Below, piece after piece: positions 1-56,075 of a stretch of DNA of 64,000 nucleotides. Every line of letters starts with the position of its first letter. Position 1 is the stretch's first letter. A model generated the notes under the pieces. It was not told the origin of the DNA. It was given only the letters and a program-made list of their open reading frames with translations, and ran no database searches. The stretch is from Tachypleus tridentatus. Taxonomy: Eukaryota > Arthropoda > Merostomata > Xiphosura > Limulidae. Location: contig NC_134829.1 in the NCBI RefSeq assembly GCF_004210375.1, forward strand, positions 57,900,107 to 57,964,106, written 5' to 3'. Both the position numbers and the translations under genes were made by a program.

Positions 1-3000
1 TGATATTGTTGAGGATACGCTTCTCATAATCAGTTTATAAAATGATATTGTTGAGGATACGCTTCTCATAATCAGTTTATAAAATGATATTGTTGAGGAA
101 GAGCTTCTCATAATTAGTTCATAAAATGATATTGTTGAGGATAAGCTTCTCATAATCAGTTTATAAAATGGTATTGTTGAGGATAAGCTTCTCATAATCA
201 GTTTATAAAATGATATTGTTGAGGATAAGCTTCTCATAATCAGTTTATAAAATGATATTGTTGAGGATACGCTTCTCATAATCAGTTTATAAAATGATAT
301 TGTTGAGGAAGAGCTTCTCATAATCAGTTTATAAAATGATATTGTTGAGGATAAGCTTCTCATAATCAGTTTATAAAATGATATTGTTGAGGATAAGCTT
401 CTCATAATCAGTTTATAAAATGATATTGTTGAGGATAAGCTTCTCATAATCAGTTTATAAAATGATATTGTTGAGGATAAGCTTCTCATAATCAGTTTAT
501 AAAATGATATTGTTGAGGATACGCTTCTCATAATCAGTTTATAAAATGATATTGTTGAGGAAGAGCTTCTCATAATTAGTTTATAAAATGATATTGTTGA
601 GGATAAGCTTCTCATAATCAGTTTATAAAATGGTATTGTTGAGGATAAGCTTCTCATAATCAGTTTATAAAATGATATTGTTGAGGATAAGCTTCTCATA
701 ATCAGTTTATAAAATGATATTGTTGAGGATACGCTTCTCATAATCAGTTTATAAAATGATATTGTTGAGGAAGAGCTTCTCATAATCAGTTTATAAAATG
801 ATATTGTTGAGGATAAGCTTCTCATAATCAGTTTATAAAATGATATTGTTGAGGATAAGCTTCTCATAATCAGTTTATAAAATGATATTGTTGAGGATAA
901 GCTTCTCATAATCAGTTTATAAAATGATATTGTTGAGGATACGCTTCTCATAATCAGTTTATAAAATGATATTGTTGAGGAAGAGCTTCTCATAATCAGT
1001 TTATAAAATGATATTGTTGAGGAAGAGCTTCTCATAATCAGTTTATAAAATGATATTGTTGAGGATACGCTTCTCATAATCAGTTTATAAAATGATATTG
1101 TTGAGGAAGAGCTTCTCATAATCAGTTTATAAAATGATATTGTTGAGGATAAGCTTCTCATAATCAGTTTATAAAATGATATTGTTGAGGATAAGCTTCT
1201 CATAATCAGTTTATAAAATGGTATTGTTGAGGATACGCTTCTCATAATCAGTTTATAAAATGATATTGTTGAGGATACGCTTCTCATAATCAGTTTATAA
1301 AATGATATTGTTGAGGAAGAGCTTCTCATAATCAGTTTATAAAATGATATTGTTGAGGATAAGCTTCTCATAATCAGTTTATAAAATGGTATTGTTGAGG
1401 ATAAGCTTCTCATAATCAGTTTATAAAATGATATTGTTGAGGATAAGCTTCTCATAATCAGTTTATAAAATGATATTGTTGAGGATACGCTTCTCATAAT
1501 CAGTTTATAAAATGATATTGTTGAGGAAGAGCTTCTCATAATCAGTTTATAAAATGATATTGTTGAGGATAAGCTTCTCATAATCAGTTTATAAAATGAT
1601 ATTGTTGAGGATAAGCTTCTCATAATCAGTTTATAAAATGATATTGTTGAGGATAAGCTTCTCATAATCAGTTTATAAAATGATATTGTTGAGGATAAGC
1701 TTCTCATAATCAGTTTATAAAATGATATTGTTGAGGATACGCTTCTCATAATCAGTTTATAAAATGATATTGTTGAGGAAGAGCTTCTCATAATCAGTTT
1801 ATAAAATGATATTGTTGAGGAAGAGCTTCTCATAATCAGTTTATAAAATGATATTGTTGAGGAAGAGCTTCTCATAATTAGTTTATAAAATGATATTGTT
1901 GAGGATAAGCTTCTCATAATCAGTTTATAAAATGGTATTGTTGAGGATAAGCTTCTCATAATCAGTTTATAAAATGATATTGTTGAGGATAAGCTTCTCA
2001 TAATCAGTTTATAAAATGATATTGTTGAGGATACGCTTCTCATAATCAGTTTATAAAATGATATTGTTGAGGAAGAGCTTCTCATAATCAGTTTATAAAA
2101 TGATATTGTTGAGGATAAGCTTCTCATAATCAGTTTATAAAATGGTATTGTTGAGGATAAGCTTCTCATAATCAGTTTATAAAATGATATTGTTGAGGAT
2201 AAGCTTCTCATAATCAGTTTATAAAATGATATTGTTGAGGATACGCTTCTCATAATCAGTTTATAAAATGATATTGTTGAGGAAAAGCTTCTCATAATCA
2301 GTTTATAAAATGATATTGTTGAGGATAAGCTTCTCATAATCAGTTTATAAAATGATATTGTTGAGGATAAGCTTCTCATATTCAGTTTATAAAATGATAT
2401 TGTTGAGGATAAGCTTCTCATAATCAGTTTATAAAATGATATTGTTGAGGATAAGCTTCTCATAATCAGTTTATAAAATGATATTGTTGAGGATAAGCTT
2501 CTCATAATCAGTTTATAAAATGATATTGTTGAGGATACGCTTCTCATAATCAGTTTATAAAATGATATTGTTGAGGAAGAGCTTCTCATAATCAGTTTAT
2601 AAAATGATATTGTTGAGGATAAGCTTCTCATAATCAGTTTATAAAATGATATTGTTGAGGATAAGCTTCTCATAATCAGTTTATAAAATGATATTGTTGA
2701 GGATAAGCTTCTCATAATCAGTTTATAAAATGATATTGTTGAGGATACGCTTCTCATAATCAGTTTATAAAATGATATTGTTGAGGATAAGCTTCTCATA
2801 ATCAGTTTATAAAATGATATTGTTGAGGATAAGCTTCTCATAATCAGTTTATAAAATGATATTGTTGAGGATACGCTTCTCATAATCAGTTTATAAAATG
2901 ATATTGTTGAGGAAGAGCTTCTCATAATCAGTTTATAAAATGATATTGTTGAAGAAGAGCTTCTCATAATCAGTTTATAAAATGATATTGTTGAGGATAA

Positions 3001-6000
3001 GCTTCTCATAATCAGTTTATAAAATGATATTGTTGAGGATACGCTTCTCATAATCAGTTTATAAAATGATATTGTTGAGGAAGAGCTTCTCATAATCAGT
3101 TTATAAAATGGTATTGTTGAGGAAGAGCTTCTCATAATCAGTTTATAAAATGGTATTGTTGAGGAAGAGCTTCTCATAATCAGTTTATAAAATGATATTG
3201 TTGAGGATACGCTTCTCATAATCAGTTTATAAAATGATATTGTTGAGGAAGAGCTTCTCATAATCAGTTTATAAAATGATATTGTTGAGGATAAGCTTCT
3301 CATAATCAGTTTATAAAATGATATTGTTGAGGATAAGCTTCTCATAATCAGTTTATAAAATGATATTGTTGAGGATACGCTTCTCATAATCAGTTTATAA
3401 AATGATATTGTTGAGGAAGAGCTTCTCATAATCAGTTTATAAAATGATATTGTTGAAGAAGAGCTTCTCATAATCAGTTTATAAAATGATATTGTTGAGG
3501 ATAAGCTTCTCATAATCAGTTTATAAAATGATATTGTTGAGGATACGCTTCTCATAATCAGTTTATAAAATGATATTGTTGAGGAAGAGCTTCTCATAAT
3601 CAGTTTATAAAATGGTATTGTTGAGGAAAAGCTTCTCATAATCAGTTTATAAAATGGTATTGTTGAGGAAGAGCTTCTCATAATCAGTTTATAAAATGAT
3701 ATTGTTGAGGATACGCTTCTCATAATCAGTTTATAAAATGATATTGTTGAGGAAGAGCTTCTCATAATCAGTTTATAAAATGATATTGTTGAGGATAAGC
3801 TTCTCATAATCAGTTTATAAAATGATATTGTTGAGGATAAGCTTCTCATAATCAGTTTATAAAATGATATTGTTGAGGATAAGCTTCTCATAATCAGTTT
3901 ATAAAATGATATTGTTGAGGATACGCTTCTCATAATCAGTTTATAAAATGATATTGTTGAGGAAGAGCTTCTCATAATCAGTTTATAAAATGATATTGTT
4001 GAGGAAGAGCTTCTCATAATCAGTTTATAAAATGGTATTGTTGAGGATACGCTTCTCATAATCAGTTTATAAAATGATATTGTTGAGGAAGAGCTTCTCA
4101 TAATCAGTTTATAAAATGATATTGTTGAGGAAGAGCTTCTCATAATCAGTTTATAAAATGATATTGTTGAGGAAGAGCTTCTCATAATCAGTTTATAAAA
4201 TGATATTGTTGAGGAAGAGCTTCTCATAATCAGTTTATAAAATGATATTGTTGAGGATAAGCTTCTCATAATCAGTTTATAAAATGATATTGTTGAGGAT
4301 AAGCTTCTCATAATCAGTTTATAAAATGATATTGTTGAGGATAAGCTTCTCATAATCAGTTTATAAAATGATATTGTTGAGGATAAGCTTCTCATAATCA
4401 GTTTATAAAATGATATTGTTGAGGATACGCTTCTCATAATCAGTTTATAAAATGATATTGTTGAGGAAGAGCTTCTCATAATCAGTTTATAAAATGATAT
4501 TGTTGAGGATAAGCTTCTCATAATCAGTTTATAAAATGGTATTGTTGAGGATAAGCTTCTCATAATCAGTTTATAAAATGATATTGTTGAGGATAAGCTT
4601 CTCATAATCAGTTTATAAAATGATATTGTTGAGGATACGCTTCTCATAATCAGTTTATAAAATGATATTGTTGAGGAAGAGCTTCTCATAATCAGTTTAT
4701 AAAATGATATTGTTGAGGATAAGCTTCTCATAATCAGTTTATAAAATGGTATTGTTGAGGATAAGCTTCTCATAATCAGTTTATAAAATGATATTGTTGA
4801 GGATAAGCTTCTCATAATCAGTTTATAAAATGATATTGTTGAGGATACGCTTCTCATAATCAGTTTATAAAATGATATTGTTGAGGAAGAGCTTCTCATA
4901 ATCAGTTTATAAAATGATATTGTTGAGGATAAGCTTCTCATAATCAGTTTATAAAATGATATTGTTGAGGATAAGCTTCTCATAATCAGTTTATAAAATG
5001 ATATTGTTGAGAATAAGCTTCTCATAATCAGTTTATAAAATGATATTGTTGAGGATAAGCTTCTCATAATCAGTTTATAAAATGATATTGTTGAGGATAA
5101 GCTTCTCATAATCAGTTTATAAAATGATATTGTTGAGGATACGCTTCTCATAATCAGTTTATAAAATGATATTGTTGAGGAAGAGCTTCTCATAATCAGT
5201 TTATAAAATGATATTGTTGAGGATAAGCTTCTCATAATCAGTTTATAAAATGATATTGTTGAGGATAAGCTTCTCATAATCAGTTTATAAAATGATATTG
5301 TTGAGGATAAGCTTCTCATAATCAGTTTATAAAATGATATTGTTGAGGATACGCTTCTCATAATCAGTTTATAAAATGATATTGTTGAGGATAAGCTTCT
5401 CATAATCAGTTTATAAAATGATATTGTTGAGGATACGCTTCTCATAATCAGTTTATAAAATGATATTGTTGAGGAAGAGCTTCTCATAATCAGTTTATAA
5501 AATGGTATTGTTGAGGATAAGCTTCTCATAATCAGTTTATAAAATGATATTGTTGAGGATAAGCTTCTCATAATCAGTTTATAAAATGATATTGTTGAGG
5601 ATACGCTTCTCATAATCAGTTTATAAAATGATATTGTTGAGGATAAGCTTCTCATAATCAGTTTATAAAATGGTATTGTTGAGGAAGAGCTTCTCATAAT
5701 CAGTTTATAAAATGATATTGTTGAGGATAAGCTTCTCATAATCAGTTTATAAAATGGTATTGTTGAGGATAAGCTTCTCATAATCAGTTTATAAAATGGT
5801 ATTGTTGAGGATAAGCTTCTCATAATCAGTTTATAAAATGATAATGTTGAGGATACGCTTCTCATAATCAGTTTATAAAATGATATTGTTGAGGATAAGC
5901 TTCTGATTAGCAGTTTATAAAATGGTATTGTTGAGGATAAGCTTCTCATAATCAGTTTATAAAATGGTATTGTTGAGGATAAGCTTCTCATAATCAGTTT

Positions 6001-7029
6001 ATAAAATGGTATTGTTGAGGATAAGCTTCTCATAATCAGTTTATAAAATGGTATTGTTGAGGATAAGCTTCTCATAATCACTTTATAAAATGATATTGTT
6101 GAGGATAAGCTTCTCATAATCAGTTTATAAAATGGTATTGTTGAGGATAAGCTTCTCATAATCAGTTTATAAAATGGTATTGTTGAGGATAAGCTTCTCA
6201 TAATCAGTTTATAAAATGGTATTGTTGAGGATACGCTTCTCATAATCAGTTTATAAAATGATATTGTTGAGGATAAGCTTCTGATTAGCAGTTTATAAAA
6301 TGATATTGTTGAGGATAAGCTTCTCATAATCAGTTTATAAAATGATATTGTTGAGGATACGCTTCTCATAATCAGTTTATAAAATGATATTGTTGAGGAA
6401 GAGCTTCTCATAATCAGTTTATAAAATGGTATTGTTGAGGATAAGCTTCTCATAATCAGTTTATAAAATGATATTGTTGAGGATACGCTTCTCATAATCA
6501 GTTTATAAAATGATATTGTTGAGGATACGCTTCTCATAATCAGTTTATAAAATGATATTGTTGAGGAAGAGCTTCTCATAATCAGTTTATAAAATGATAT
6601 TGTTGAGGATAAGCTTCTCATAATCAGTTTATAAAATGGTATTGTTGAGGATACGCTTCTCATAATCAGTTTATAAAATGATATTGTTGAGGATACGCTT
6701 CTCATAATCAGTTTATAAAATGATATTGTTGAGGATACGCTTCTCATAATCAGTTTATAAAATGGTATTGTTGAGGATAAGCTTCTCATAATCAGTTTAT
6801 AAAATGGTATTGTTGAGGATACGCTTCTCATAATCAGTTTATAAAATGGTATTGTTGAGGATACGCTTCTCATAATCAGTTTATAAAATGGTATTGTTGA
6901 GGATAAGCTTCTCATAATCAGTTTATAAAATGATATTGTTGAGGATAAGCTTCTCATAATCAGTTTATAAAATGATAATGTTGAGGATACGCTTCTCATA
7001 ATCAGTTTATAAAATGATATTGTTGAGGA
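1..7029. repeat. 42-bp satellite array, about 167 copies, truncated by window start
   Basis: Unit begins TGATATTGTTGAGGATACGC and ends with TTTATAAAA. Three main variants differ at one hexamer (GATACG, GAAGAG, GATAAG), plus a GGTATT/GATATT difference at the start. They recur in the order GATACG, GAAGAG, then one to five GATAAG, a higher-order arrangement. The array ends sharply at 7029, 131 bp before exon 1 of the window, and continues beyond the left edge. Confidence 0.98.
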
Positions 7030-13222: not shown

Positions 13223-16200
13223 TCGATATGTTGTTTCTATGATCTATTGATATGTTGTTTCTATGATCTATCGATATGTTGTTTATATGATCTATTGATA
13301 TGTTGTTTATATGATCTATCCATATGTTGTTTCTATGATCTATTGATATGTTGTTTATATGATCTATCCATATGTTGTTTCTATGATCTATTGATATGTT
13401 GTTTATATGATCTATCCATATGTTGTTTCTATGATATATCGATATGTTGTTTATATGATCTATCCATATGTTGTTTCTATGATCTATTGATATGTTGTTT
13501 ATATGATCTATCCATATGTTGTTTCTATGATCTATTGATATGTTGTTTCTATGATCTATCCATATGTTGTTTCTATGATCTATCGATATGTTGTTTATAT
13601 GATCTATCCATATGTTGTTTCTATGATCTATTGATATGTTGTTTCTATGATCTATCCATATGTTGTTTCTATGATCTATTGATATGTTGTTTCTATGATC
13701 TATCCATATGTTGTTTCTATGATCTATCCATATGTTGTTTCTATGATCTATTGATATGTTGTTTATATGATCCATTGATATGTTGTTTCTATGATCTATC
13801 GATATGTTGTTTCTATGATCTATCGATATGTTGTTTATATGATCTATCCATATGTTGTTTCTATGATCTATCCATATGTTGTTTATATGATCTATCCATA
13901 TGTTGTTTCTATGATCTATCGATATGTTGTTTATATGATCCATCGATAGTTGTTTATATGATCTATCCATATGTTGTTTCTATGATCTATTGATATGTTG
14001 TTTCTATGATCTATCCATATGTTGTTTCTATGATCTATCGATATGTTGTTTCTATGATCTATTGATATGTTGTTTATATGATCTATTGATATGTTGTTTC
14101 TATGATCTATCGATATGTTGTTTATATGATCTATCCATATGTTGTTTCTATGATCTATCCATATGTTGTTTATATGATCTATCCATATGTTGTTTCTATG
14201 ATCTATCGATATGTTGTTTCTATGATCTATCCATATTTTGTTTCTATGATCTATCGATATGTTGTATATATGATCTATCCACATGTTGTTTCTATGATCT
14301 ATCCACATGTTGTTTCTATGATCTATCGATATGTTGTTTCTATGATCTATCGATATGTTGTATCTATGATCTATCCACATGTTGTTTATATGATCTATCG
14401 ATATGTTGTTTCTATGATCTATCGATATGTTGTTTCTATGATCTATCCGTATGTTGTTTCTATGATCTATCCGTATGTTGTTTATATGATCTATCCATAT
14501 GTTGTTTCTATGATCTATCCACATGTTGTTTCTATGATCTATCGATATGTTGTTTCTATGATCTATCCACATGTTGTTTCTATGATCTATCCACATGTTG
14601 TTTCTATGATCTATCGATATGTTGTTTCTATGATCTATCCACATGTTGTTTCTATGATCTATCGATATGTTGTATATATGATCTATCCACATGTTGTTTC
14701 TATGATCTATCCACATGTTGTTTCTATGATCTATCGATATGTTGTTTCTATGATCTATCGATATGTTGTTTCTATGATCTATCCGTATGTTGTTTCTATG
14801 ATCTATCGATATGTTGTATATATGATCTATCCACATGTTGTTTCTATGATCTATCCACATGTTGTTTATATGATCTATCCATATGTTGTTTCTATGATCT
14901 ATCGATATGTTGTATCTATGATCTATCCACATGTTGTTTCTATGATCTATCGATATGTTGTTTCTATGATCTATCGATATGTTGTTTCTATGATCTATCC
15001 GTATGTTGTTTCTATGATCTATCCGTATGTTGTTTATATGATCTATCCATATGTTGTTTCTATGATCTATCCACATGTTGTTTCTATGATCTATCGATAT
15101 GTTGTTTCTATGATCTATCCACATGTTGTTTCTATGATCTATCCACATGTTGTTTCTATGATCTATCGATATGTTGTTTCTATGATCTATCCACATGTTG
15201 TTTCTATGATCTATCGATATGTTGTTTCTATGATCTATCCACATGTTGTTTCTATGATCTATCCACATGTTGTTTCTATGATCTATCGAAATGTTGTTTC
15301 TATGATCTATCCACATGTTGTTTCTATGATCTATCGATATGTTGTATATATGATCTATCCACATGTTGTTTCTATGATCTATCCACATGTTGTTTCTATG
15401 ATCTATCGATATGTTGTTTCTATGATCTATCCACATATTGTTTCTATGATCTATCCACATGTTGTTTCTATGATCTATCGATATGTTGTTTCTATGATCT
15501 ATCGATATGTTGTTTCTATGATCTATCCGTATGTTGTTTATATGATCTATCCATATGTTGTTTCTATGATCTATCCACATGTTGTTTCTATGATCTATCG
15601 ATATGTTGTTTCTATGATCTATTGATATGTTGTTTCTATGATCTATCGATATGTTGTTTATATGATCTATCCATATGTTGTTTCTATGATCTATCGATAT
15701 GTTGTTTATATGATCTATCCATATGTTGTTTCTATGATCTATCGATATGTTGTTTCTATGATCTATCGATATGTTGTTTCTATGATCTATTGATATGTTG
15801 TTTCTATGATCTATCGATATGTTGTTTCTATGATCTATCGATATGTTGTTTATATGATCTATCCATATGTTGTTTCTATGATCTATCGATATGTTGTTTA
15901 TATGATCTATCCATATGTTGTTTCTATGATCTATCGATATGTTGTTTCTATGATCTATCGATATGTTGTTTCTATGATCTATTGATATGTTGTTTCTATG
16001 ATCTATCCATATGTTGTTTCTATGATCTATCGATATGTTGTTTCTATGATCTATCGATATGTTGTTTCTATGATTTATCCGTATGTTGTTTCTATGATCT
16101 ATCCGTATGTTGTTTATATGATCTATCCATATGTTGTTTCTATGATCTATCCACATGTTGTTTCTATGATCTATCGATATGTTGTTTCTATGATCTATTG

Positions 16201-16807
16201 ATATGTTGTTTCTATGATCTATTGATATGTTGTTTATATGATCTATCCATATGTTGTTTCTATGATCTATTGATATGTTGTTTCTATGATCTATCCATAT
16301 GTTGTTTCTATGATCTATTGATATGTTGTTTCTATGATCTATCCATATGTTGTTTATATGATCTATCCATATGTTGTTTCTATGATCTATCCATATGTTG
16401 TTTATATGATCTATCCATATGTTGTTTCTATGATCTATCGATATGTTGTTTCTATGATCTATCGATATGTTGTTTCTATGATCTATTGATATGTTGTTTC
16501 TATGATCTATCCATATGTTGTTTCTATGATCTATCCATATGTTGTTTCTATGATCTATCAATATGTTGTTTCTATGATCTATCCATATTTTGTTTCTATG
16601 ATCTATCGATATGTTGTATCTATGATCTATCCACATGTTGTTTCTATGATCTATCGATATGTTGTTTCTATGATCTATCGATATGTTGTATCTATGATCT
16701 ATCCACATGTTGTTTCTATGATCTATCCACATGTTGTTTCTATGATCTATCGATATGTTGTTTCTATGATCTATCGATATGTTGTTTATATGATCTATCC
16801 ATATGTT
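13223..16807. repeat. 24-bp satellite array, about 149 copies
   Basis: Unit ATATGTTGTTTCTATGATCT followed by ATCC, ATCG or ATTG; TTTCTA alternates with TTTATA and TATCTA. Because 24 is divisible by three and no variant makes a stop, both strands hold frames of more than 950 codons. These encode only the repeat (plus ICCFYDLS, minus IDHRNNIS) and are not credible genes. The array lies in intron 3 and ends about 100 bp before exon 4. Confidence 0.97.
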
Positions 16808-17948: not shown

Positions 17949-18204
17949 GCTATCGTAGTGAAGTCGGAGCTAGAGATTACTATCTCACCTCGCATCAAGG
18001 AGAAATGTTGATGTCTCCTAGACGAAGACTGAGGGATGCACAAGGTAGATTAGGATTTCCTCCGTCGAGTACTTTTCATTCGTATGACATGCTCTATCGT
18101 GGAGGACCGTCGTCTTGGACGAAATATGATATGGGGGCTTCAGGATCAGTAAGTTATAGCCATGTTGCGGTCCCAACTAGCTACTCAACTCCATCTCTCT
18201 CCAG
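17949..18204 (+). CDS. pclo-like: Piccolo-like exon 5, Tyr/Arg/Ser linker
   Basis: Acceptor CGTTCCAG, donor GTACAT, 256 nt, phase 1 in and 2 out. Reads GYRSEVGARDYY and later SPRRRLRDAQGRLG and SYDMLYRGGPSSW, a Tyr/Arg/Ser-rich linker without a recognised fold. The last 24 or so exon bases and the donor are the founder-like first unit of a 64-bp tandem array that continues for about 1.1 kb into the intron. The true donor here is GTACAT, whereas most array copies read GTTCAT, a weaker site. Confidence 0.82.
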
Positions 18205-19306
18205 GTACATGTAAATTAATTATGTATAATTACATTATCCAGTTATACTCAAACTCCCTTTATCTCCAGGTTTATCAAAATTAATTATGTATAATCACAT
18301 TATCCAGTTATACTTAAACTCCCTTTATCTCCAAGTTCAGGAAAATTAATTATGTATAATTACATTATCCAGTTATACTCAACACCCTTTATCTCCAGGT
18401 TCATCAAAATTAATTATGTATAATTACATTATCCAGTTATACTCAACACCCTTTATCTCCAGGTTCATCAAAATTAATTACGTATAATCACATTATCCAG
18501 TTATACTCAACACCCTTTATCTCCAGGTTCATCAAAATTAATTATGTATAATTACATTATCCAGTTATACTCAACATTCTTTATCTCCAGGTTCATCAAA
18601 ATTAATTATGTATAATCACATTATCCAGTTATACTTAAACTCCCTTTATCTCCAAGTTCAGGAAAATTAATTATGTATAATTACATTATCCAGTTATACT
18701 CAACACCCTTTATCTCCAGGTTCATCAAAATTAATTATGTATAATTACATTATCCAGTTATACTCAACACCCTTTATCTCCAGGTTCATCAAAATTAATT
18801 ACGTATAATCACATTATCCAGTTATACTCAACACCCTTTATCTCCAGGTTCATCAAAATTAATTATGTATAATTACATTATCCAGTTATACTCAACATTC
18901 TTTATCTCCAGGTTCATCAAAATTAATTATGTATAATTACATTATCCAGTTATACTCAACATTCTTTATCTCCAGGTTCATCAAAATTAATTATGTATAA
19001 TTACATTATCCAGTTATACTCAACACCCTTTATCTCCAGGTTCATCAAAATTAATTATGTATAATTACATTATCCAGTTATACTCAACATTCTTTATCTC
19101 CAGGTTCATCAAAATTAATTATGTATAATTACATTATCCAGTTATACTCAACATTCTTTATCTCCAGGTTCATCAAAATTAATTATGTATAATTACATTA
19201 TCCAGTTATACTCAACACCCTTTATCTCCAGGTTCATCAAAATTAATTATGTATAATTACATTATCCAGTTATACTCAACATTCTTTATCTCCAGGTTCA
19301 TGAAAA
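18181..19306. repeat. 64-bp array seeded by the exon 5 boundary, about 17 copies
   Basis: The first unit spans the last 24 or so bases of exon 5, its donor and the start of the intron (TACTCAACTCC, CTCCAG/GTACATG). Later units repeat this as TACTCAACACC, CTCCAGGTTCATC and AATTAATTATGTATAATTAC. Copies differ by a few bases, including TATAATTAC versus TATAATCAC, and longer blocks of several units also recur. Confidence 0.95.
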
Positions 19307-19479
19307 TAATCTTTTAATACTAAATCCCTTTTTCTTCATACACAACTGTAATCATAGGTTTTTACTATCGAACAGTAGAAGTGTGATTGTATGTTGATTA
19401 TATAATACTGTGATGTGCTTGTCTTATCGAACATTATAAAAGCCAGTGTGTATTACGTCACGCTTGATGTCTCGAAATA

Positions 19480-24032: not shown

Positions 24033-24364
24033 ACATGGTTACGTCCGAAAGCCAGAAGTGCTCTGGTATGGCAGCGAACCTACAAGTCCCTCAGCCCGAT
24101 TTCCTGAAAATACAGAAGAGGATAATAGTATAGCTAGAATCGCTTTAACATTTCCAACAAATGGAAATACGCCCTCCAAAATACACCGTCATAACCGCCT
24201 TCCAATTGACTCTTTTCTGGACTTTTCGCCCGCAACACCAGACTCAGAAACTCCACCAGATATGCCCGAATATACTCCAGCCATGCCAATTCTTCCCGAC
24301 ATGCCTTCTCGTTCTCGTAAACTCTTAGAAGATCTAGGTAGTGCTCCTATTGTTGGACCTCGCT
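24033..24364 (+). CDS. pclo-like: Piccolo-like exon 6, Pro-rich linker
   Basis: Acceptor AATTATCAG, donor GTAAGT, 332 nt, phase 2 in and 1 out. Translation HGYVRKPEVLWYGSEPTSPS, then a Pro/Met-rich stretch with PDMPEYTPAMPILPDMPSR and a final LLEDLGSAPIVGPR. No domain recognised. The final 47 exon bases plus the donor form the first unit of a 78-bp tandem array (24318-25425), so the real donor is followed by about 13 further copies of the same exon end and donor sequence. Confidence 0.83.
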
Positions 24365-25425
24365 GTAAGTATTCTTGGATATATCTAATTAATTGTAAAA
24401 CTCTTAGAAGATCTAGGTAGTGCTCCTATTGTTGGACCTCGCTGTAAGTATTCTTGGATATATCTAATTAACTGTTAAACTCTTAGAACATCTAGGTAGT
24501 GCTCCGATTGTTGGTCCTCGCTGTAAGTATTCTTGGATATAACTAATTAATTGCTAAACTCTTAAAATATCTAGGTAGTGCTCCTATTGTTAGACTTCGC
24601 TGTAAGTATTCTTGGATATATCTAATTAACTGTTAAACTCTTAGAAGATCTAGGTAGTGCTCCGATTGTTGGTCCTCGCTGTAAGTATTCTTGGATATAA
24701 CTAATTAATTGCTAAACTCTTAGAATATCTAGGTAGTGCTCCTATTGTTGGTCCTCGCTGTAAGTATTCTTGGATATATCTAATTAATTGCAAAACTCTT
24801 AGAAGATCTAGGTAGTGCTCCTATTGTTGGACCTCGCTGTAAGTATTCTTGGATATGTCTAATTAATTGTTAAACTCTTAGAATATCTAGGTAGTGCTCC
24901 TATTGTTGGACCTCGCTGTAAGTATTCTTGGATATATCTAATTAACTGTTAAACTCTTAGAAGATCTAGGTAGTGTTCCTATTGTTAATCCTCGCTGTAA
25001 GTATTCTTGGATATAACTAATTAATTGTTAAACTCTTAGAATATCTAGGTAGTGTTCCTATTGTTGGTCCTCGCTGTAAGTATTCTTGGATATAACTAAT
25101 TAATTGTTAAACTCTTAGAATATCTAGGTAGTGCTCCTATTGTTGGACCTCGCTGTAAGTATTCTTGGATATATCTAATTAACTGTTAAACTCTTAGAAG
25201 ATCTAGGTAGTGTTCCTATTGTTGGACCTCGCTGTAAGTATTCTTGGATATAACTAATTAATTGTTAAACTCTTAGAATATCTAGGTAGTGCTCCTATTG
25301 TTGGTCCTCGCTGTAAGTATTCTTGGATATATCTAATTAATTGTTAAACTCTTAGAAGATCTAGGTAGTGCTCCTATTGTTGGTCGTCGCTGTAAGTATT
25401 CTTGGATATATCTAATTTATTGTTA
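24318..25425. repeat. 78-bp array seeded by the exon 6 boundary, about 14 copies
   Basis: Unit 1 covers the last 47 bases of exon 6 plus donor and intron start. Each later unit again carries TAGTGCTCCTATTGTTGG, CCTCGCTGTAAGTATTC and GGATATATCTAATTAA. Every copy keeps the GTAAGTAT donor. Copies are 95% or so alike by eye, with changes such as CTCCGATTG and GTGTTCC. Confidence 0.96.
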
Positions 25426-25883
25426 AAGTATTATTGGATGTACTAGTTAAGTGTTAACGTATTCTTACGTATAACTAGTTAATTGTTCACGTGATCTTAA
25501 TAAACTATTTAATTCTTAAAGTATTTTTGAATATAACCAGTCAGTTGTTAAAAGTGGCGTATGTAAGTTTTCTGTCTTCTATACCCATTACAAATGTACT
25601 GTCAGAAGTAAAGCTCCAACATGGGTTAGGGTTAAAACCTCTCAGTGACAACAGCTTATAACTATTGTTATATCATACCTTGCGCTCAGAAGCTATTTAT
25701 ATTCACCCTTGTAGACTATCTACGGTGTTTATTATGCGGTATTTCATATCTTTGTTTTAAATGTTCTAATGTTCAGTATTGATATGTTTTTAATACAGTA
25801 TGATAGACATTGGAGTCATTAAAAATATTTTGAATATCTTTCAGATTTGAAAAAAAAAGTGTTGTCTACTTATACAATAGTTG

Positions 25884-26085
25884 TATGGCCAGGTGATTAG
25901 AGCTCTTGACTCGCAATCTGAGGGTCGTGGGTTCGAATCTCCGTCTCAACAAATGTATTCGCCTCTTCAGCCGCGGTAACGTTATATGTGACGGTCAATC
26001 CCACTATTCGTTGGCAAAAGAGTAACTCGAGAATTGGCGGTGGGCGGTGATGTCTACCTGCATTTCCTGTAGTTTTTCACACATC
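25884..26085 (+). mobile_element. SINE family 1, 3'-truncated
   Basis: Head TATGGCCAGGTGATTAGAGC, B-box GGGTTCGAATC and body to CGGTGGGCGGTGATG; the tail is lost. Confidence 0.85.
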
Positions 26086-26268: not shown

Positions 26269-26412
26269 GACCCCGCATGACCAGGTTGTTAGGACGTTCA
26301 ACACGTCATCTGAGGGTCGCGATTTCGAATTCCCGGGCACCAAACATGCTCGACCTTTCAGGTGTTGGGACATTTATATGTAATGGTCAATCCCATTATT
26401 TCTTGGTAATCA
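26269..26412 (+). mobile_element. SINE family 1, head and part of body, diverged
   Basis: GACCCCGCATGACCAGGTTG, then GGGTCGCGATTTCGAATTCC and CATGCTCGACCTTTCAGG; older than its neighbours judging by substitutions. Confidence 0.75.
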
Positions 26413-26524
26413 CTAGTCCGGTTCCGATATATCAATCACAACGCCAGATTTGGGCCCCATAACAAATCTTTAGTGTATTATACATACTGACGTGTGTCTG
26501 TGTGTATTCTGAGACATTATTCCT

Positions 26525-27206: not shown

Positions 27207-27304
27207 CTCACCCATCACAGAGAGAGTTTAGTCATTCTGACCGGTCCAGAGGTCATCTCAGAGAAGGGCTAACAAGAGAAGAATATCCAGAGAGCCAAGT
27301 TCAA
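27207..27304 (+). CDS. pclo-like: Piccolo-like exon 7, with alternative donor at 27332
   Basis: Acceptor TTGCTTTTCAG, donor GTAAGA, 98 nt, phase 1 in and 0 out. Reads HPSQREFSHSDRSRGHLREG and ends PESQVQ. A 27-bp tandem duplication copies the end of the exon and the donor, so a second GTAAGA at 27332 would extend the exon by nine in-frame codons (VRTRESKVQ) without a stop. Which donor is used cannot be decided from sequence. The next exon is entered in phase 0 either way. Confidence 0.77.
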
Positions 27305-27336
27305 GTAAGAACTCGAGAGAGCAAAGTTCAAGTAAG
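27278..27336 (+). repeat. 27-bp tandem duplication of exon 7 end and donor
   Basis: GAGAGCCAAGTTCAAGTAAG is followed 27 bp later by GAGAGCAAAGTTCAAGTAAG. Both contain a GTAAGA donor in the same reading phase, since 27 is a multiple of three. Confidence 0.9.
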
Positions 27337-28289
27337 AACGTACGCAAGTTCAGTGTATGAAAATTGGTTTCACTTCTTGTGCATGAGTTGTCCTTTTTCA
27401 TTCTATAGATACAGTTTACTAGATGTGGTTTTATATTATATTTGATTATTTATATATTTGTTTATTTCCATATTAATGGTCTATGTCAATGTCTTCATAT
27501 TTTGCTGAATTCTAATACATATTTACGGTAGAAAAAGGCCTCATTATATCGTGTATGTATATATAGAAATACATATAAAATATATATACGTAATCGAATG
27601 ACTGTTGTAAAATGTCTTATTTCACTTTTTTTTTAAAAAAAAGGTAATTATTATCTACGTTCATTTAAAGCAGAGTTTCCCAAAATGGTCGCTATCGACT
27701 CCCTGGGGCCATGAGATTTTACAAGATGTGAATAAAGACCTATGTATCGATAGGGGGTCTAAAATAACTCCTGGATTAAAGATGGCGTACGTTTAGTAGC
27801 AACAGCGAGCGAAAGTTACAGTCTTATTCGTTTGTTTCCTAATGATTATATTATGATGAATAAAGGTTGATTACACATTGAATGTTCATGAATGTGAATT
27901 TTCGCTCATAATTTATATTCCAAGAATTTAATGTGGAAGTTACATCAAAAATTAAAGCATGACTTCTGAGCTTTTAAAACAAAACTATTTTTGGTAATTT
28001 ATTCGGGCTGTCACCCCGAATTTTTCTGCAGGGTTCTGTTGTTTGTTAAACGTTTTACACCAATAAAAGGTTTACGTAATTGAGCCGAAAGTTTCTACGT
28101 TAATTAAAACAAAACAAAAAACACTAAAAACTAAAACAGTAGTGGTGATGATAGTTTTGGTAAATAATTTAATACAAATATGAGAACTCACGTTAAAACT
28201 CTAGTTTTTATTACTCATTTCATTTAAATACATAAATGTCTACGAATCCATAACAAGAATTGTTTCTCTTGATGACAATAAACTTGAAA

Positions 28290-32276: not shown

Positions 32277-32402
32277 GAAACGGATTTGGTTTAGAAATTA
32301 TTGGTGGCAAAGAAATTCCTGACAATAACGGAATGACGGGAGCATATATTGCTAAAATATATCCCAGCGTCATGGTTGGTACTTTGGGAGAGGTTGCAGA
32401 AG
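32277..32402 (+). CDS. pclo-like: Piccolo-like exon 9, core of PDZ domain
   Basis: Acceptor TTTTTCTTTACAG, donor GTAGAT, 126 nt, phase 1 in and out. Encodes GNGFGLEIIGGKEIPDNNG and then GAYIAKIYPSVMVGTLGEVAEG. GFGL is the ligand carboxylate-binding loop of the PDZ fold. GGKEIP and GAYIAKI are shared with Piccolo/Fife. The usual PGGSA segment is replaced by PSVMVG, an odd but conservative-length difference. The domain binds C-terminal or internal peptides of presynaptic partners in this family. Confidence 0.93.
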
Positions 32403-33568: not shown

Positions 33569-33677
33569 GTGATCAGGTACTGGAATGGAATGGAATTACT
33601 TTAAATGGCAAAACGTTCGAAGAAGTTAAACGGATCATTGCGTCTTCTGAAGATGAAGTAGAAATGGTTATCCGGAG
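33569..33677 (+). CDS. pclo-like: Piccolo-like exon 10, end of PDZ domain
   Basis: Acceptor TTCTATACTGCAG, donor GTAATA, 109 nt, phase 1 in and 2 out. Encodes GDQVLEWNGITLNGKTFEEV, then KRIIASSEDEVEMVIR. QVLEWNG is the diagnostic strand of RIM/Piccolo PDZ domains, and EEVKRII forms the second helix lining the peptide groove. With exons 8 and 9 it gives a PDZ of normal size, about 85-90 residues. The phase-2 end joins exon 11 to give IRSDLNV, close to the RLDLN that follows the PDZ in vertebrate Piccolo. Confidence 0.94.
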
Positions 33678-36351: not shown

Positions 36352-36407
36352 AATTATCACAAATAGATCCCAACCCTTTATTGAGTTGGGATCTATTTGT
36401 GATAATT
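36352..36407. repeat. Perfect 23-bp inverted repeat (hairpin)
   Basis: AATTATCACAAATAGATCCC plus AAC (36352-36374) is the exact reverse complement of 36385-36407, with a 10-nt loop. The right arm runs into the first copy of the 220-bp duplication. Confidence 0.9.
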
Positions 36408-36834
36408 CACAGTATCCAGTATAACACTACCAATCAACGTCTATTTGATCAACTACCCTCGATTTCTATCGAAAATTATCACTCAATCTCTTCCTTTCTT
36501 TAGTAATTTTAATAATACGTGGTTGTGTAATTTTTATTTATAAGTATTAAGTATTATAAGTGTACACACCAACACGTACATGGTACTGCTAGGAAATCTG
36601 TAACACAATATTATATTTGTGATAATTCACAGTATCCAGTATAACACTACCAATCAACGTCTATTTGATCAACTACCCTCGATTTCTATCGAAAATTATC
36701 ACTCAATCTCTTCCTTTCTTTAGTAATTTTAATAATACGTGGTTGTGTAATTTTTATTTATAAGTATTAAGTATTATAAGTGTACACACCAACACGTACA
36801 TGGTACTGCTAGGAAATCTGTAACACAATATTAT
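36395..36834. repeat. 220-bp tandem duplication, two near-identical copies
   Basis: 36395-36614 and 36615-36834 read the same base for base as far as I can check by eye (both start ATTTGTGATAATTCACAG and end TAACACAATATTAT). A recent duplication or an assembly duplicate. Confidence 0.93.
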
Positions 36835-37457
36835 AGAATAATACTATTTTATGTCTCTAGTGGTAATAATAATACTATTTTATGTCTCTAGTGGTAATAA
36901 TAATACTATTTTATGTCTCTAGTGGTAATTATAATACTATTTTATGTCTCTAGTGGTAATAATAATACTATTTTATGTCTCTAGTGGTAATTATAATACT
37001 ATTTTATGTCTCTAGTGGTAATATTAATACTATTTTATGTCTCTAGTGGTAATTATAATACTATTTTATGTCTCTAGTGGTAATAATAATACTATTTTAT
37101 GTCTCTAGTGGTAATAATAATACTATTTTATGTCTCTAGTGGTAATAATAATACTATTTTATGTCTCTAGTGGTAATTATAATACTATTTTATGTCTCTA
37201 GTGGAAATAATAATACTATTTTATGTCTCTAGTGGTAATAATAATACTATTTTATGTCTCTAGTGGTAATAATAATACTATTTTATGTCTCTAGTGGTAA
37301 TAATAATACTATTTTATGTCTCTAGTGGTAATAATAATACTATTTTATGTCTCTAGTGGTAATAATAATACTATTTTATGTCTCTAGTGGTAATAATAAT
37401 ACTATTTTATGTCTCTAGTGGTAATAATAATACTATTTTATGTCTCTAGTGGTAATT
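36835..37457. repeat. 31-bp satellite array, about 20 copies
   Basis: Unit ATACTATTTTATGTCTCTAG followed by TGGTAATAATA, with TAATTATA as the main variant. Directly abuts the 220-bp duplication. Unrelated in sequence to the other 31-bp array. Confidence 0.96.
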
Positions 37458-39820: not shown

Positions 39821-40911
39821 CAACTATACCAGGTAAGGCTTGATATCTAGCTTCTGATGACCAACTATACCAGGTCAGGCTTGATATCTAGCTTCTGATG
39901 ACCAACTATACCAGGTAAGGCTTGATATCTAGCTTCTGATGACCAACTATACCAGGTCAGGCTTGATATCTAGCTTCTGATGACCAACTATACCAGGTAA
40001 GGCTTGATATCTAGCTTCTGATGACCAACTATACCAGGTCAGGCTTGATATCTAGCTTCTGATGACCAACTATACCAGGTAAGGCTTGATATCTGGCTTC
40101 TGATGACCAACTATACCAGGTAAGGCTTGATATCTAGCTTCTGATGACCAACTATACCAGGTAAGGCTTGATATCTAGCTTCTGATGACCAACTATACCA
40201 GGTAAGGCTTGATATCTAGCTTCTGATGACCAACTATACCAGGTAAGGCTTGATATCTAGCTTCTGATGACCAACTATACCAGGTAAGGCTTGATATCTA
40301 GCTTCTGATGACCAACTATACCAGGTAAGGCTTGATATCTAGCTTCTGATGACCAACTATACCAGGTCAGGCTTGATATCTAGCTTCTGATGACCAACTA
40401 TACCAGGTAAGGCTTGATATCTAGCTTCTGATGACCAACTATACCAGGTAAGGCTTGATATCTAGCTTCTGATGACCAACTATACCAGGTAAGGCTTGAT
40501 ATCTAGCTTCTGATGACCAACTATACCAGGTAAGGCTTGATATCTAGCTTCTGATGACCAACTATACCAGGTAAGGCTTGATATCTAGCTTCTGATGACC
40601 AACTATACCAGGTCAGGCTTGATATCTAGCTTCTGATGACCAACTATACCAGGTAGGCTTGATATCTAGCTTCTGATGACCAACTATACCAGGTCAGGCT
40701 TGATATCTAGCTTCTGATGACCAACTATACCAGGTCAGGCTTGATATCTAGCTTCTGATGACCAACTATACCAGGTAAGGCTTGATATCTGGCTTCTGAT
40801 GACCAACTATACCAGGTCGGAAGCGATATCTAGCTTACCAGGTGGAAGGCGATATCTAGCTTCTGATGACCAACTATACCAGGTAAGGCTTGATATCAGC
40901 TTCTGATGACC
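39821..40911. repeat. 41-bp array with consensus splice donors, about 26 copies
   Basis: Unit CAACTATACCAGGTAAGGCT followed by TGATATCTAGCTTCTGATGAC. Most copies carry CCAGGTAAGG, a near-perfect 5' splice site; others have CCAGGTCAGG, alternating in the first part. The last units are shortened and scrambled (about 40820-40911). Confidence 0.95.
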
Positions 40912-41191: not shown

Positions 41192-41230
41192 TCTAAGCTC
41201 CAAGCCCAACACATAGCCGGTGAAATAAAG
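41192..41230 (+). CDS. pclo-like: Piccolo-like exon 13, lead-in to C2A, with donor/phase problem
   Basis: Acceptor TCATCTTTCAG. Reads SKLQAQHIAGEIK, and GEIK joined to IQV of exon 14 matches the GEI-x-LQ start of the Piccolo C2A. If the donor is the consensus GTAAGT at 41230 the exon is 38 nt and ends in phase 2, but exon 14 is open only in phase 0. To keep the frame the G at 41230 must be exonic, which leaves a TAAGTA intron start. A lost G at AAAG/GTAAGT would explain this. The same AAAGTAAGTAC is repeated through the following 49-bp array. Confidence 0.72.
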
Positions 41231-42068
41231 TAAGTACAACACATAATACTATAACAACTTCACGTGTTGTATACTAAAGTAAGTACAACACATAATACTA
41301 TTACAACTTTACGTGTTATATACTAAAGTAAGTACAACACATAATACTATTACAACTTCACGTGTTATATACTAAAGTAAGTACAACACATAATACTATA
41401 ACAACTTCACGTGTTATATACTAAAGTAAGTTACAACACATAATACTATTACAACTTCACGTGTTATATACTAAAGTAAGTACAACACATAATACTATTA
41501 CAACTTCACGTGTTATATACTAAAGTAAGTACAACACACATAATACTATTACAACTTTACGTGTTATATACTAAAGTAAATTACAACACATAATACTATT
41601 ACAACTTTACGTGTTATATACTAAAGTAAGTTACAACACATAATACTATTACAACTTCACGTGTTATATACTAAAGTAAGTACAACACATAATACTATAT
41701 AACTTCACGTGTTGTATACTAAAGTAAGTACAACACATAATACTATAACCAACTTCGTGTTGTTTGTATGCTAAAGTAAGTACAACACATAATGCAATAA
41801 CAACTTCACGTGTTATATATAAAGTAAAGTACAACACATAATACTATAACAACTTCACGTGTTATATACTAAAGTAAGTACAACACATAATACTATAACA
41901 ACTTCACGTGTTATATACTAAAGTAAGTACAACACATAATACTATAACAACTTCACGTGTTGTATACTAAAGTAATTACAACACATAATACTATAACAAC
42001 TTCACGTGTTATATACTAAAGTAAGTACAACGCATAATACTATTACAACTTCACGTGTTATATACTAA
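41222..42068. repeat. 49-bp array seeded by the exon 13 boundary, about 17 copies
   Basis: Starts at the exon 13 end (AATAAAGTAAGTACAACAC) and repeats CTAAAGTAAGTACAACACAT, AATACTAT and CAACTTCACGTGTTATATA. Nearly all copies keep GTAAGTAC. Small indels (GTAAGTTAC, GTAAATTAC) occur. The array fills half of intron 13. Confidence 0.95.
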
Positions 42069-44066: not shown

Positions 44067-44337
44067 ATGGATACAGTGAAACAAGAACATTGTATTTTAG
44101 AATGCACAGGGTAAAACATTAAAATTGGTATACATTAGTGTACAAATGAGTATTGTATTACTTGCATTCATGATTTTAATGTTACACATTTAATTAATTA
44201 AACATTTCTAGAGAAGAACATCACATAATTACCCATAGTTTATTACGTAACTATCTGTCAACAATGCTAATATAACTAAAAATAGCGCTGTAACATTGCT
44301 ACCTGTGGCTGTCTTTAGTCTCTGTAACAGTCATCAC

Positions 44338-52290: not shown

Positions 52291-53303
52291 CAGATATTTA
52301 TTTTTGTCAGCACCATTAGGTAGCCGAATTGATTTTAAGCAAACATGCTTGCATGGTTATTCACACACTATCGTACCAAATTTTTAATTTGTGGTTTATC
52401 AGAACAAGTTAAACGAACAGCCCAAATTACCCTTAATAACTACAGCAGCTGTAGTCTTTTGTTTTTAGACTTTAGTGTATGTTTTCCTAATAGTCTTTTA
52501 TAACGAATGGTTTAATTTTTGATTTTGTAAGCTTGAGAGAACTGAGGCGTGGTAGTCTATAATAATTCTTGAATTTTTTTTGTAGCCATGAAGGTGTAAC
52601 ACACCCGAGGTAATTTGTGTGTAGATTAATTTAAGTGATTTATTTCTAGTGTGTGAAAAAGGTAACCAAATTATTTATCTGTAATTAATTATTGCTTGCC
52701 AATTACCCGTGACGCCAGTGCATTAGATTCGCGTGTGACGTATTCATTACGCCATATTCACATTCTGTGTGTTTGTAAATAAATAGCACCACTTTGAGAA
52801 CATTTTTCCAAGTTTTTCTCAATTTCTGGCCGTAAATGACACTTTTTCGTTTGAATACTCGGTAGATACTTGAAAAACTAACAATACATAATTGTTTTTG
52901 ACACTATTCATTGCTTTATAGCGCAGTGAACGTCGAATCTGCGTGTGAGCTCTTCAGCAAATTGAGCTGATCGATTTTTGCTGTGCATTTGAATGAAGAA
53001 AAGAAGTTCTCTGTGACGGGAAACAAAGGCGAAACGGGAAAATTGTGACATCTATTGAAAATCTACATGCACACAGAATAAAAAATTTCGCAAAGTTGAG
53101 GGTTGCACATAGTGTAATAAAAGGTTTTCAAGTATCATATAAGCAACGGTTTCATTATAATATGATGACGATAATGATAACACGCTGAACAGAAACATAT
53201 CCATGTTTAAAAAGCAATGTAAAAACTGTAGCTAGTCATAGTACACATGCTGATGACAGTAAAAAAAAAAAACTACAAGATTTTCACGATTTAATCGTTT
53301 TGT
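52291..53303. other. Unassigned region
   Basis: No coding frame or repeat family recognised. The same is true of 51340-51934, 54402-55282, 55347-56064 and 57166-58436. Confidence 0.5.
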
Positions 53304-53314
53304 TGGATGTTCGG

Positions 53315-53594
53315 TTTCTGGTTTGATTTTTTTGAAATTTGGCGCAAAGCTACACGAGGGTTATCTATGCTAGCCGTCCCTAATTTAGAAGTGTAAGACT
53401 AGAGGGAAGGCAGCTAGTCATCACCACCCACAGCCAACTCTTAAGCTACTCTTTTACCAACGAATAGTGGGATTGACCGTAACATTATAATGCCCCACTG
53501 CTGAGAGGGCGATCATGTTTGGTGTGACGGGGATTCGAACTCGCGACTCTCGGATTACGAGTCGAGTGCTTTAACCACCTGGCCACGCCAGGCC
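53315..53594 (-). mobile_element. SINE family 1, full length with TSD
   Basis: Reverse-oriented full copy flanked by TGGATGTTCGG at 53304-53314 and 53595-53605, an 11-bp target-site duplication. Confidence 0.95.
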
Positions 53595-54049
53595 TGGATG
53601 TTCGGAAATTCAATAGAATTCTAATTCAGTTATGCTACAATACAGAAATCTTCATGTTTTACAAAAGCAAAGTTTCTAGCTCTGACTCCAGTATTTAACA
53701 TACCACTGGGCTGAAACGATATACGTGTTTTACTCGACTTTCATCAATACACCTGGGGTTCATATTTTTTAAAATTTTTATTTATTTTTTATGTTATTTA
53801 CACATTAACATCTTCTGACACAAAAATTATAAAACTGTCGATGTGTTGTATTCGAATAATTTTTGTGAATAAAAGTCGCATGCGGCCCATGCGGACCCCA
53901 AGTAATATACAAATTCGGAGCTCTGTTCTTCATCAGGCATTATGAGTATGGACTCACAGGGGTTATCCATTGTGATAAACAGTGATTACGTATTTAGATC
54001 TCTCCTGAAGTGAAATAATGCACAAAACCTACTTCAGAGACGTCTCCAG

Positions 54050-54253
54050 GATCTCCCTGCAATGCAGAAAGGTGTTAAATCTACCTTTGTAGATCTAGGA
54101 TTGTTTGACACAAGACAACATGCTGGCAAGATGTTCCAGCAACAAGAACACGATGCTATCTTTGCCCAAGAACTGCAGACAGGAAAGTCTGTCAAATCTG
54201 TAGAGCATGTGGAAACCATGGTTGCGCTGATCACCACCCAGTGTACTGTGTGA
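54050..54253 (+). pseudogene. Unassigned ORF fragment, possibly from a mobile element
   Basis: The plus frame reads QDLPAMQKGVKSTFVDLGLF and later HAGKMFQQQEHDAIFAQELQ, to a stop at 54251-54253; 63 codons from the ATG at 54062. Composition is protein-like (balanced charge, no low complexity), unlike the surrounding intron-like sequence. I do not recognise the family. There is no good splice acceptor nearby and the frame is short, so it looks like a retrocopy or transposon-derived fragment. A SINE follows directly. Confidence 0.3.
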
Positions 54254-54271
54254 TAAGTGTTTGTTAAATGA

Positions 54272-54401
54272 TGTTGTTGTTGTTTTTTGAATGAAGCACA
54301 AAGCTACACAACGGGCTATCTGTGTTCTGCTCACCACGGGTATCAAAACCCGGTTTTTAGCGTTGTAAGTCCGCTGACATCCCGCTGAGCCACTGGGGGG
54401 C
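54272..54401 (-). mobile_element. SINE family 2 copy
   Basis: Reverse orientation with CGGGCTATCTGTGTTCTGC and GCTGAGCCACTGGGGGGC. TGTTAAATGA and TGTAAAATGA flank it as a probable TSD. Confidence 0.9.
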
Positions 54402-55282
54402 TTGTAAAATGACTGGTAAAAGATATGAGAGACACTTTATGTTCATTCAGAATATGTTTTGCAAACAAGTTGTCCAAAATTTGGCATTAGTTTAGCTCTG
54501 AACCAAAGTTTGATGCAGTTCGACCCCTCTTGGGTTCATTCGAACCCCAAGCACATTTTCGTACAATTTGGTGTTTTTTGTTACATTGTCGAGAAATCTG
54601 TTTCTTCATTCAGTATTTTATTAATGTCAATGATGACTATTTGTGTCTAAATATGAGAAAGTAGTTACACGTAAATTTCATATTTTGTAATAATAAATCA
54701 CATATTATATACTTATGGTTCTCAGTCTTTCTTACACTTTATTTGCACAATGCTATGAGAAAGCACTATGCTAACTTTTCAACAACTGAATCATAGCTTC
54801 AACATTATGATCATTAAACATATGTGGGATCCGTATGGACTCCAGGTGAACTGAAAGGTATATATTTTAAGGTGTACTGATGAAGGTTAAATGAGCATAC
54901 TAGTTCTGGTTCCACAACTTAACATTGTAACTCTTGTTCCAAAATAACACGTAAAGATGCAGGCCGAGAAAAACGTGTTTTATCCAGGATAACTTTATAA
55001 TTCTTGTTTCAAGATAACACATACACAACACAGTTAAGGAAATCCTCACGTGTTTCCTAAGCACATTTTCAATCTGTTATTCTAAGATATCACGTATCAC
55101 TGGGCCAAGTAAAATAACAACTAGAGATATAAACTCAGTTAATACATTATATTTAAGTATGCTATTCAGTCGTATTATTTAGACCGTCAACAATTCAAAT
55201 TACGAACAAAGGTTTCAGAAGAACTGTTTTGGGCATAGCTATTAGAAAATTTGCCATTAATACTAAGTATAACTGCAAAGGT

Positions 55283-55346
55283 ATGGCATGGCCTGGTGGT
55301 CTGTACAAGCGATTCGCAATCTGTGGGTCACGAGGTCGAATCCTCG
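55283..55346 (+). mobile_element. tRNA-like SINE head only
   Basis: GGCATGGCCTGGTGGTCTGT, then GGTCGAATCCTCG: head with B-box but no body. It could also be a decayed tRNA pseudogene. Confidence 0.5.
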
Positions 55347-56075
55347 TTTTAAAAATTATTGTTTCTTCTAGAGTAATAAGTATGAAAAGTATCTTGGTTA
55401 ATACAAAATATATGTGTCCGTCAAAAAAGACTAGTGTTATAAGCCTACACTTACTGCTGAACCACTGTGGGACTAAAACGTTCATAAATCTGTCTACGCA
55501 CTTCTTAATCGGGCGGAGGAGGGCAATTTGCTAGCAACGTTTAGTTTGAAAATTTACCCTGAATGACTAAGTGTCTCTATATCTAGATCAACATGTCCGC
55601 CTTTATGTCATTTTCTCAATAAATTCACCTGCTAGATCACACACGTCTTTTATCTTCGTTTTATATCCGGAGAGGGTTGGTTGTTGGAAGTTTATGTAAT
55701 CGCTATGAAAGTACGTTCAGAGCTTTAATAAAGAAATTTTGAATAACAAAGGAACACGTGCGATGAATGGAACAATAACGTGCTGGGTTCATTAGTATTT
55801 AGTGTTGACTAAATTATGCATTCCAGAAGTCACAGTGCGATTAACATTTGTTGTAATATACAACAACAACAAATTGCGAGAAGTCAATGTCTTTTTTTTT
55901 CTCTATCGTACTGCTTAAATACTACATTGAATTTTACATTATATCTAGTTTTACATTATATCGTTTTAAAAGACACGAGAAAATCTCCACTTTTGGTGAA
56001 ATCACGTCTTGTTTTTTTTAGCGTAACATATTAAGTATATCTGCAGGGCGTTAAGTCAGGCATTTTGTCGCACTG

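Follow-up and report, generated by a model that had tools for sequence, protein, structure and literature searches.

A coding exon of the horseshoe crab Tachypleus tridentatus ends inside a tandem array that repeats the exon's own 5' splice site, and this raises the question of how such an array arose and whether the extra donors matter to the gene. The exon lies in a 64,000-nucleotide stretch of contig NC_134829.1, a stretch to which we refer as the window (features in Table 1); its label, exon 6, follows the numbering of the preliminary description of the sequence. TRF reports the array at 24318-25427 with a period of 79, 14.1 copies, and 93% matches, and an exact search for GCTGTAAGTATTCTTGG returns 14 copies at steps of 79 bp each, arranged as head-to-tail units. 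The preliminary description had the copy number right at about 14, and its period of 78 bp is corrected to 79 bp by these exact anchors. As it had also stated, the unit begins in coding sequence and carries exon end, donor, and intron start together: 47 bp of exon end precede 32 bp of intron start, the latter opens with the donor GTAAGTAT, and unit 1, within the coding exon at 24033-24364, is the exon end itself. The donor GTs fall at 24365 + 79k (k = 0-13), the final GT being at 25392. The donor GTAAGTAT, which we take to be the complement of the U1 snRNA 5' end, is kept in 14 of 14 window units, just as had been claimed, and the first donor is indeed followed by 13 further copies identical to it over 8 nt, the "equal competitors" of the earlier account. 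Fourteen units at 93% identity lie far beyond chance. With tandem units in the range of about 10-100 bp and in many copies (14 x 79 bp, 93% matches), the array has the form of a minisatellite, or VNTR. The intron part of the unit is also the first member of a degenerate repeat of period 32 that runs to 25551.

Table 1. Features of the exon 6 locus and of related donors, in window coordinates
Feature	Position	Strand	Basis
Exon 5, leaves in phase 2	17949-18204	+	paralogue at C5:16.1 Mb
64-bp array at the donor of exon 5; donor region in 18 copies (near copy: 4)	18182-19307	+	TRF
Exon 6, 332 nt; in at phase 2, out at phase 1; last 47 bp are exonic unit 1	24033-24364	+	paralogue matches, acceptor, frame
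Exonic TAAA, proposed left breakpoint of a presumed founding duplication	24318-24321	+	
Array, 14 units x 79 bp, each with exon end, donor, and intron start	24318-25427	+	TRF and exact anchors
Donor 1, GTAAGTAT; sole donor joining exon 7 in frame	24365-24372	+	
In-frame TAG in unit 2, reached by every donor 2-14 transcript	24418-24420	+	
Donors 2-14, GT at 24444 + 79k, last GT 25392; identical over 8 nt	24444-25399	+	
Older degenerate repeat, period 32, 5.0 copies, 70% matches	25396-25551	+	TRF
TAAA where single-copy intron resumes, proposed right breakpoint of a presumed founding duplication	25424-25427	+	
Exon 7, up to first donor (GT at 27305)	27207-27304	+	
Exon 7 twin donors 27 bp apart, GT at 27305 and 27332	27305-27339	+	in-frame tandem duplication
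Two PDZ exons placing the gene in the Piccolo/RIM group	32277-32402 and 33569-33677	+	
Short exon (SKLQAQHIAGEIK)	41192-41229	+	reading frame and splice signals only
Array at donor of short exon, 49 bp x 17.1 (near copy 17.0)	41226-42068	+	TRF

The end of exon 6 is placed at 24364 because the homologous coding sequence of its paralogues stops at the matching place on a single donor. The exon follows exon 5 in phase 2 and continues into exon 7 (from 27207) in phase 1, and its flanking introns measure 5,828 and 2,842 nt. When the two PDZ exons are joined as protein they match PF00595 above the Pfam cut-off, and the best PDB match of this domain is KIAA0559, which we take to be Piccolo, followed by RIM2 and RIM1. 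A Pfam search with five single-exon frames gave no match above the curated cut-off. Judged by its PDZ domain, which is closest to that of Piccolo or RIM, the gene looks like a synaptic gene of Piccolo/RIM type. The short exon at 41192-41229 is a putative C2A exon, as we have labeled it.

The Pfam family Coagulin has 19 matches in the genome and none in any of 14 control genomes; coagulogen being a marker of horseshoe crabs, this fits the source species. A search of the 2.17 Gb genome with the exon 6 protein found five other places besides the array units. One is a near-identical copy of the locus at C5:45.90 Mb, on the same contig and 12 Mb away, which matches the window in collinear blocks from 962 to 44,337 and differs from it at 183 of 17,168 aligned bases (about 1.1%), as counted over 11 segments that we chose outside the arrays. 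This near copy, which is either a misplaced allele or a true duplicate, has an exon 6 protein that is 100% identical over 111 aa, and it holds 10 array units against the 14 of the window, with GTAAGTAT in 10 of 10 and with stops within the coding part of units 7-9. This difference in unit number, next to an unchanged exon 6 protein, suggests that the copy number of the array is labile. The remaining four places are diverged paralogues (C5:16.1 Mb, C13:60.9 Mb, C13:184.7 Mb, and C6:122.5 Mb), which show 39-61% identity over the aligned parts of the exon 6 protein. An RK-LLEDLGSSPIV-like exon end is kept in three of them, and in all four the exon ends at the matching place on one donor. The preliminary description had named a single copy at this place, or homologues whose array starts away from the exon boundary, as the findings that would speak against it; in the assembly both copies of the locus hold the array, and no homologue starts it elsewhere, all four diverged paralogues being without an array at the exon 6 donor. 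Since these paralogues share the exon end and its single donor and do not have the array, the comparison indicates that the exon end is old and that the array arose recently, in the gene copy of the window and the nearly identical one. The presence of several gene copies is consistent with three rounds of duplication of the horseshoe crab genome, as reported in the available part of PMC7815833.

The reading frame past donor 1 determines what the further donors can do. It meets a TAG at 24418-24420, ahead of donor 2 (GT at 24444), and this same TAG is reached from each of donors 2-14 in the window and 2-10 in the near copy. If used, donors 2-14 would all give one truncated product. The earlier suggestion that they buffer loss of donor 1 fails at this point, because all of them run into the stop at 24418 and donor 2 would offer no rescue. 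Isoforms with different exon ends, as first put forward, are likewise not what the sequence predicts, since the 13 alternatives would encode a single truncated protein; distinct in-frame products would come only from a putative splicing of mini-introns, which is taken up below. The coding part of the later units is without constraint: distinct changes there number 8 nonsynonymous and 2 synonymous in the window, and 4 nonsynonymous, 2 synonymous, and 1 stop in the near copy, to be compared with 94 nonsynonymous, 36 synonymous, and 5 stop changes that are possible. We also considered donor conservation as proof of function and rejected it, the invariance being within chance. Capture of U1, another role first suggested for the array, leans on that same invariance and is conjectural. 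In a test that is independent of column position, invariance of the 8-nt donor block has a P of 0.093 over the 24 units of both copies and 0.19 over the 14 of the window, and the longest invariant run across the 24 units, 14 columns that include the donor, has a P of 0.31.

We consider it likely that a minisatellite (VNTR) has here captured a functional 5' splice site and that the array is tolerated by way of exon definition, which takes the first donor. The founding event would have been one tandem duplication of 79 bp. Its breakpoints would lie at two TAAA tetramers on either side of the donor, the first 47 bp ahead of the end of the exon and the second 32 bp inside the intron, and these may have supplied the microhomology. 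The duplicate would then have expanded and contracted by slippage or unequal exchange, like many other minisatellites here; the 64-kb window contains 13 arrays of at least 4 copies. Unit 1 alone would be exonic, with units 2-14 left to drift in the intron without coding constraint. Because exon 6 sits between long introns (5,828 and 2,842 nt), exon definition is expected and the array would be tolerated, splicing presumably taking the first donor after the acceptor and occasional use of a later donor leading to one truncated, probably degraded mRNA. We expect donor 1 to be used and the later donors to be rare noise. The array is probably a harmless accident, because its first copy alone keeps the protein in frame, and it is most likely neutral.

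The first-donor part of this reading has a parallel in human minigenes, in which, under exon definition, the upstream of two identical CAG/guaagu donors placed 52 nt apart was used exclusively, with flanking introns of 365 nt (PMC9225289, the available part). The likeness lies in several donors of equal strength after one acceptor, with introns of exon-definition length; the minigenes had two designed donors in human cells, whereas here 14 natural ones lie 79 nt apart in an invertebrate. Against it stand the older in vitro rule, recounted in the same source, that the donor nearest the acceptor across the intron is favored, and the ability of SRSF1 to suppress an upstream donor, as described in the portion of PMC5585400 at hand. 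A single founding duplication is, in turn, put in question by a microhomology of just 4 bp, and the involvement of four donors in a single gene copy could be more than accident. With 14, 10, and 1 copies of the donor at this exon end within one genome, the locus is in effect a natural experiment on donor choice, which among identical donors has so far been argued from minigenes and alternative events.

Another reading gives the later donors a role: some transcripts would use them, and the truncated, decay-prone mRNA would reduce what this gene copy yields, to a degree set by the length of the array. The 13 later donors match the first across its 8 nt, and the frame from any of them reaches the same early stop; the PDZ domain is encoded by later exons, so truncation would remove it. 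The difference of 14 and 10 units between near-identical copies and a donor invariance within chance give no sign of selection, however, and the preference for the upstream donor under exon definition, as far as the available text of PMC9225289 reports it, also argues against substantial use of the others. We regard this reading as unlikely.

The capture of a donor by a minisatellite would be less of an accident if 5' splice sites were themselves mutational founders of minisatellites in this lineage, and the array at exon 6 does have counterparts. The arrays at 18182-19307 and 41226-42068 also start in the last exon bases and include the donor of the exon, although the later copies of the exon 5 array have an altered donor, GTTCATC for GTACATG. 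At exon 7 both near-identical loci have a two-copy duplication of 27 bp that takes in the donor, and the C5:16.1 Mb paralogue has a single donor there; choice of the second donor would add 9 codons in frame. In the same paralogue an 83-bp x 2.7 repeat begins at the donor of the first PDZ exon. Recurring donor-spanning tandem duplications in this gene are, we think, new here. With a threshold of at least 18 of 24 bases for a downstream self-match, and 20 donors placed in five gene copies, a spanning tandem copy is present at 5 of the 20 donors (4 of the 7 window donors and 1 of the 6 from the C5:16.1 Mb paralogue), at none of 7 in the other three paralogues, and upstream of none of 18 acceptors. 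The exon 6 donor of the C6 paralogue falls below the threshold at 17 of 24. The contrast of 5/20 donors with 0/18 acceptors has a Fisher P of 0.048, in a post hoc comparison of sites that are not independent. Random positions score alike: of 3,000 drawn from the repeat-rich window 33% pass the threshold, as do 8.9% of 3,000 drawn from the C5:16.1 Mb paralogue, and for this reason 4 of 7 and 1 of 6 represent no clear excess. Random placement of 13 array starts relative to 8 donors x 60 nt, in contrast, leads one to expect 0.0975 hits, and three arrays of at least 4 copies have a P of about 1.4e-4; this test, too, is post hoc, and its donor number of 8 is our estimate, 7 donors having been placed in the window. 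The 7 do not include the donor of the 34.7-kb exon or those of the early exons at about 8.5-9.1 kb.

Genome-wide counts of motifs, taken as three copies 24-54 nt apart with strands summed and set against the pattern read backward, point in both directions. Tandem AGGTAAGT occurs 3,741 times against 1,876 in the backward control (2.0 times) and tandem AGGTGAGT 3,442 times against 926 (3.7 times), and the acceptor-like TTTTCAGG is also 2.0 times its control (949 against 485); these counts are dominated by large arrays, and the words are not normalized for frequency. Two candidates were rejected here. Donor bias does not follow from the motif counts, as the ratio of the acceptor-like word equals that of AGGTAAGT, and donor-targeting as a cause was set aside because the two nulls disagree (placement P of about 1.4e-4 against 33% of random positions). 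That donors found minisatellites, so that the array is not an accident of position, is in our view quite improbable. Duplications may instead strike donors no more often than the background and leave acceptors untouched.

A broader version holds that donor-spanning duplications recur genome-wide and would survive since the first donor wins, that acceptors stay free of them, and that the exon 6 ladder may be spliced stepwise so as to set protein length; we hold this combination to be rather doubtful and give it little weight. In the accessible portion of PMC9225289, upstream acceptors are preferred overall but significantly less so under exon definition, which by the authors' conclusion favors the sites closest across the exon. 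Read with caution, that source backs tolerance at donors and not clearly intolerance at acceptors. The contrast of 5/20 with 0/18 raises the question of whether repeats may overrun a donor but not an acceptor, and the recurrent pattern in this gene deserves a genome-wide count.

Stepwise splicing at exon 6 would work as a ladder of mini-introns, each running from donor n to the CTAG of the next unit, so that 52 nt are removed, a 27-nt in-frame microexon is added, and array length sets protein length. The distance from donor n to the CTAG of unit n+1 is 52 nt with intron-like ends (three units measured per copy), CTAATTAA is present 13 times in the array, and every later unit, 13 of 13 in the window and 9 of 9 in the near copy, keeps the 27-nt piece open and in frame. 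Fission yeast introns that lie across tandem duplicates of a 24-bp AGGT segment offer a precedent in the part of PMC4974935 at hand. For intron gain, donor and acceptor should both be in the duplicated segment, and the unit does hold CTAG/GT and TTAG, without a clear pyrimidine tract. A length of 52 nt is, moreover, near the lower limit for introns. Because the agreement among units is explained by their relatedness alone, and because in most units a TTAG lies 9 nt ahead of the CTAG and splicing there gives a stop, we find such a ladder very unlikely. The near-identical second locus 12 Mb off on the same contig and the 99% inverted copies of a downstream stretch hint at some haplotype or assembly problem in the vicinity. 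An assembly artefact over a single-copy locus is nevertheless highly improbable, given that both assembled copies hold the array, that they differ in unit number and each have unit variants of their own, and that an array of 1.1 kb would be short for long reads.

The minisatellite with a captured donor can be set beside several described systems. Human segmental-duplication genes likewise have minisatellites of variable number at exon-intron boundaries of recently duplicated genes (PMC2812944). Those units average 30 bp x 4 and are, in the available text, tied to the lengthening of exons or introns and to introns proposed to be new, whereas the horseshoe crab array is 79 bp x 14, repeats an old, conserved donor in every unit, and leaves the exon unchanged. 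The potato RdRp case (PMC4974935) is also a tandem duplication that crosses an exon-intron boundary and multiplies splice signals; according to the part consulted it carries the acceptor and made a new intron, whereas the array described here multiplies the donor, any new intron in it being putative. At MIR137HG (PMC6692358) a VNTR beside alternative donors has a length linked to splicing, but its 15-bp repeat lies beside the donors and is not said, in the portion available, to repeat them, and no coding exon is involved. In the available part of PMC4039745, on minisatellites of C. elegans, the repeats in question lie close to alternative exons and do not multiply donors. Among the open-access titles and abstract openings listed, a scope that leaves subscription journals mostly outside, we found no description of a genuine 5' splice site repeated in tandem. 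VNTRs near exon boundaries are already known; what appears to be new is a VNTR straddling a conserved splice donor. Long runs of perfect decoy donors are a hazard for gene models and splice predictors in this genome.

The locus and its relatives contain further repeats. A 42 bp x 167 minisatellite occupies window positions 1-7029 (144 copies in the near copy), and a 24 bp x 149 minisatellite lies at 13226-16807, where the near copy has an 11-copy array. A perfect 220-bp x 2 duplication at 36394-36835 is followed directly by a 31-bp x 20 array. At 39821-40817, about 0.4 kb ahead of the exon at 41192, a 41-bp x 24.3 array (27.0 in the near copy) has a unit that holds CAGGTAAGG, and in some units CAGGTCAGG, with no exon recognized at the array start. 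Upstream of the two locus copies, the collinearity of which ends near window position 44337, the stretch at 52500-55500 recurs in inverted orientation and at 99% identity, at C5:57886096-57889093 and at C5:45866634-45869639. A perfect 51-bp x 2 duplication is also present in the C5:16.1 Mb paralogue (L019, 7647-7746), where it begins about 20 nt into the intron past the exon 7 donor. Finally, window positions of about 25880-26060 and 26280-26420 bear what we take to be a likeness to tRNA-derived SINEs, and frames related to them recur across the paralogue loci.
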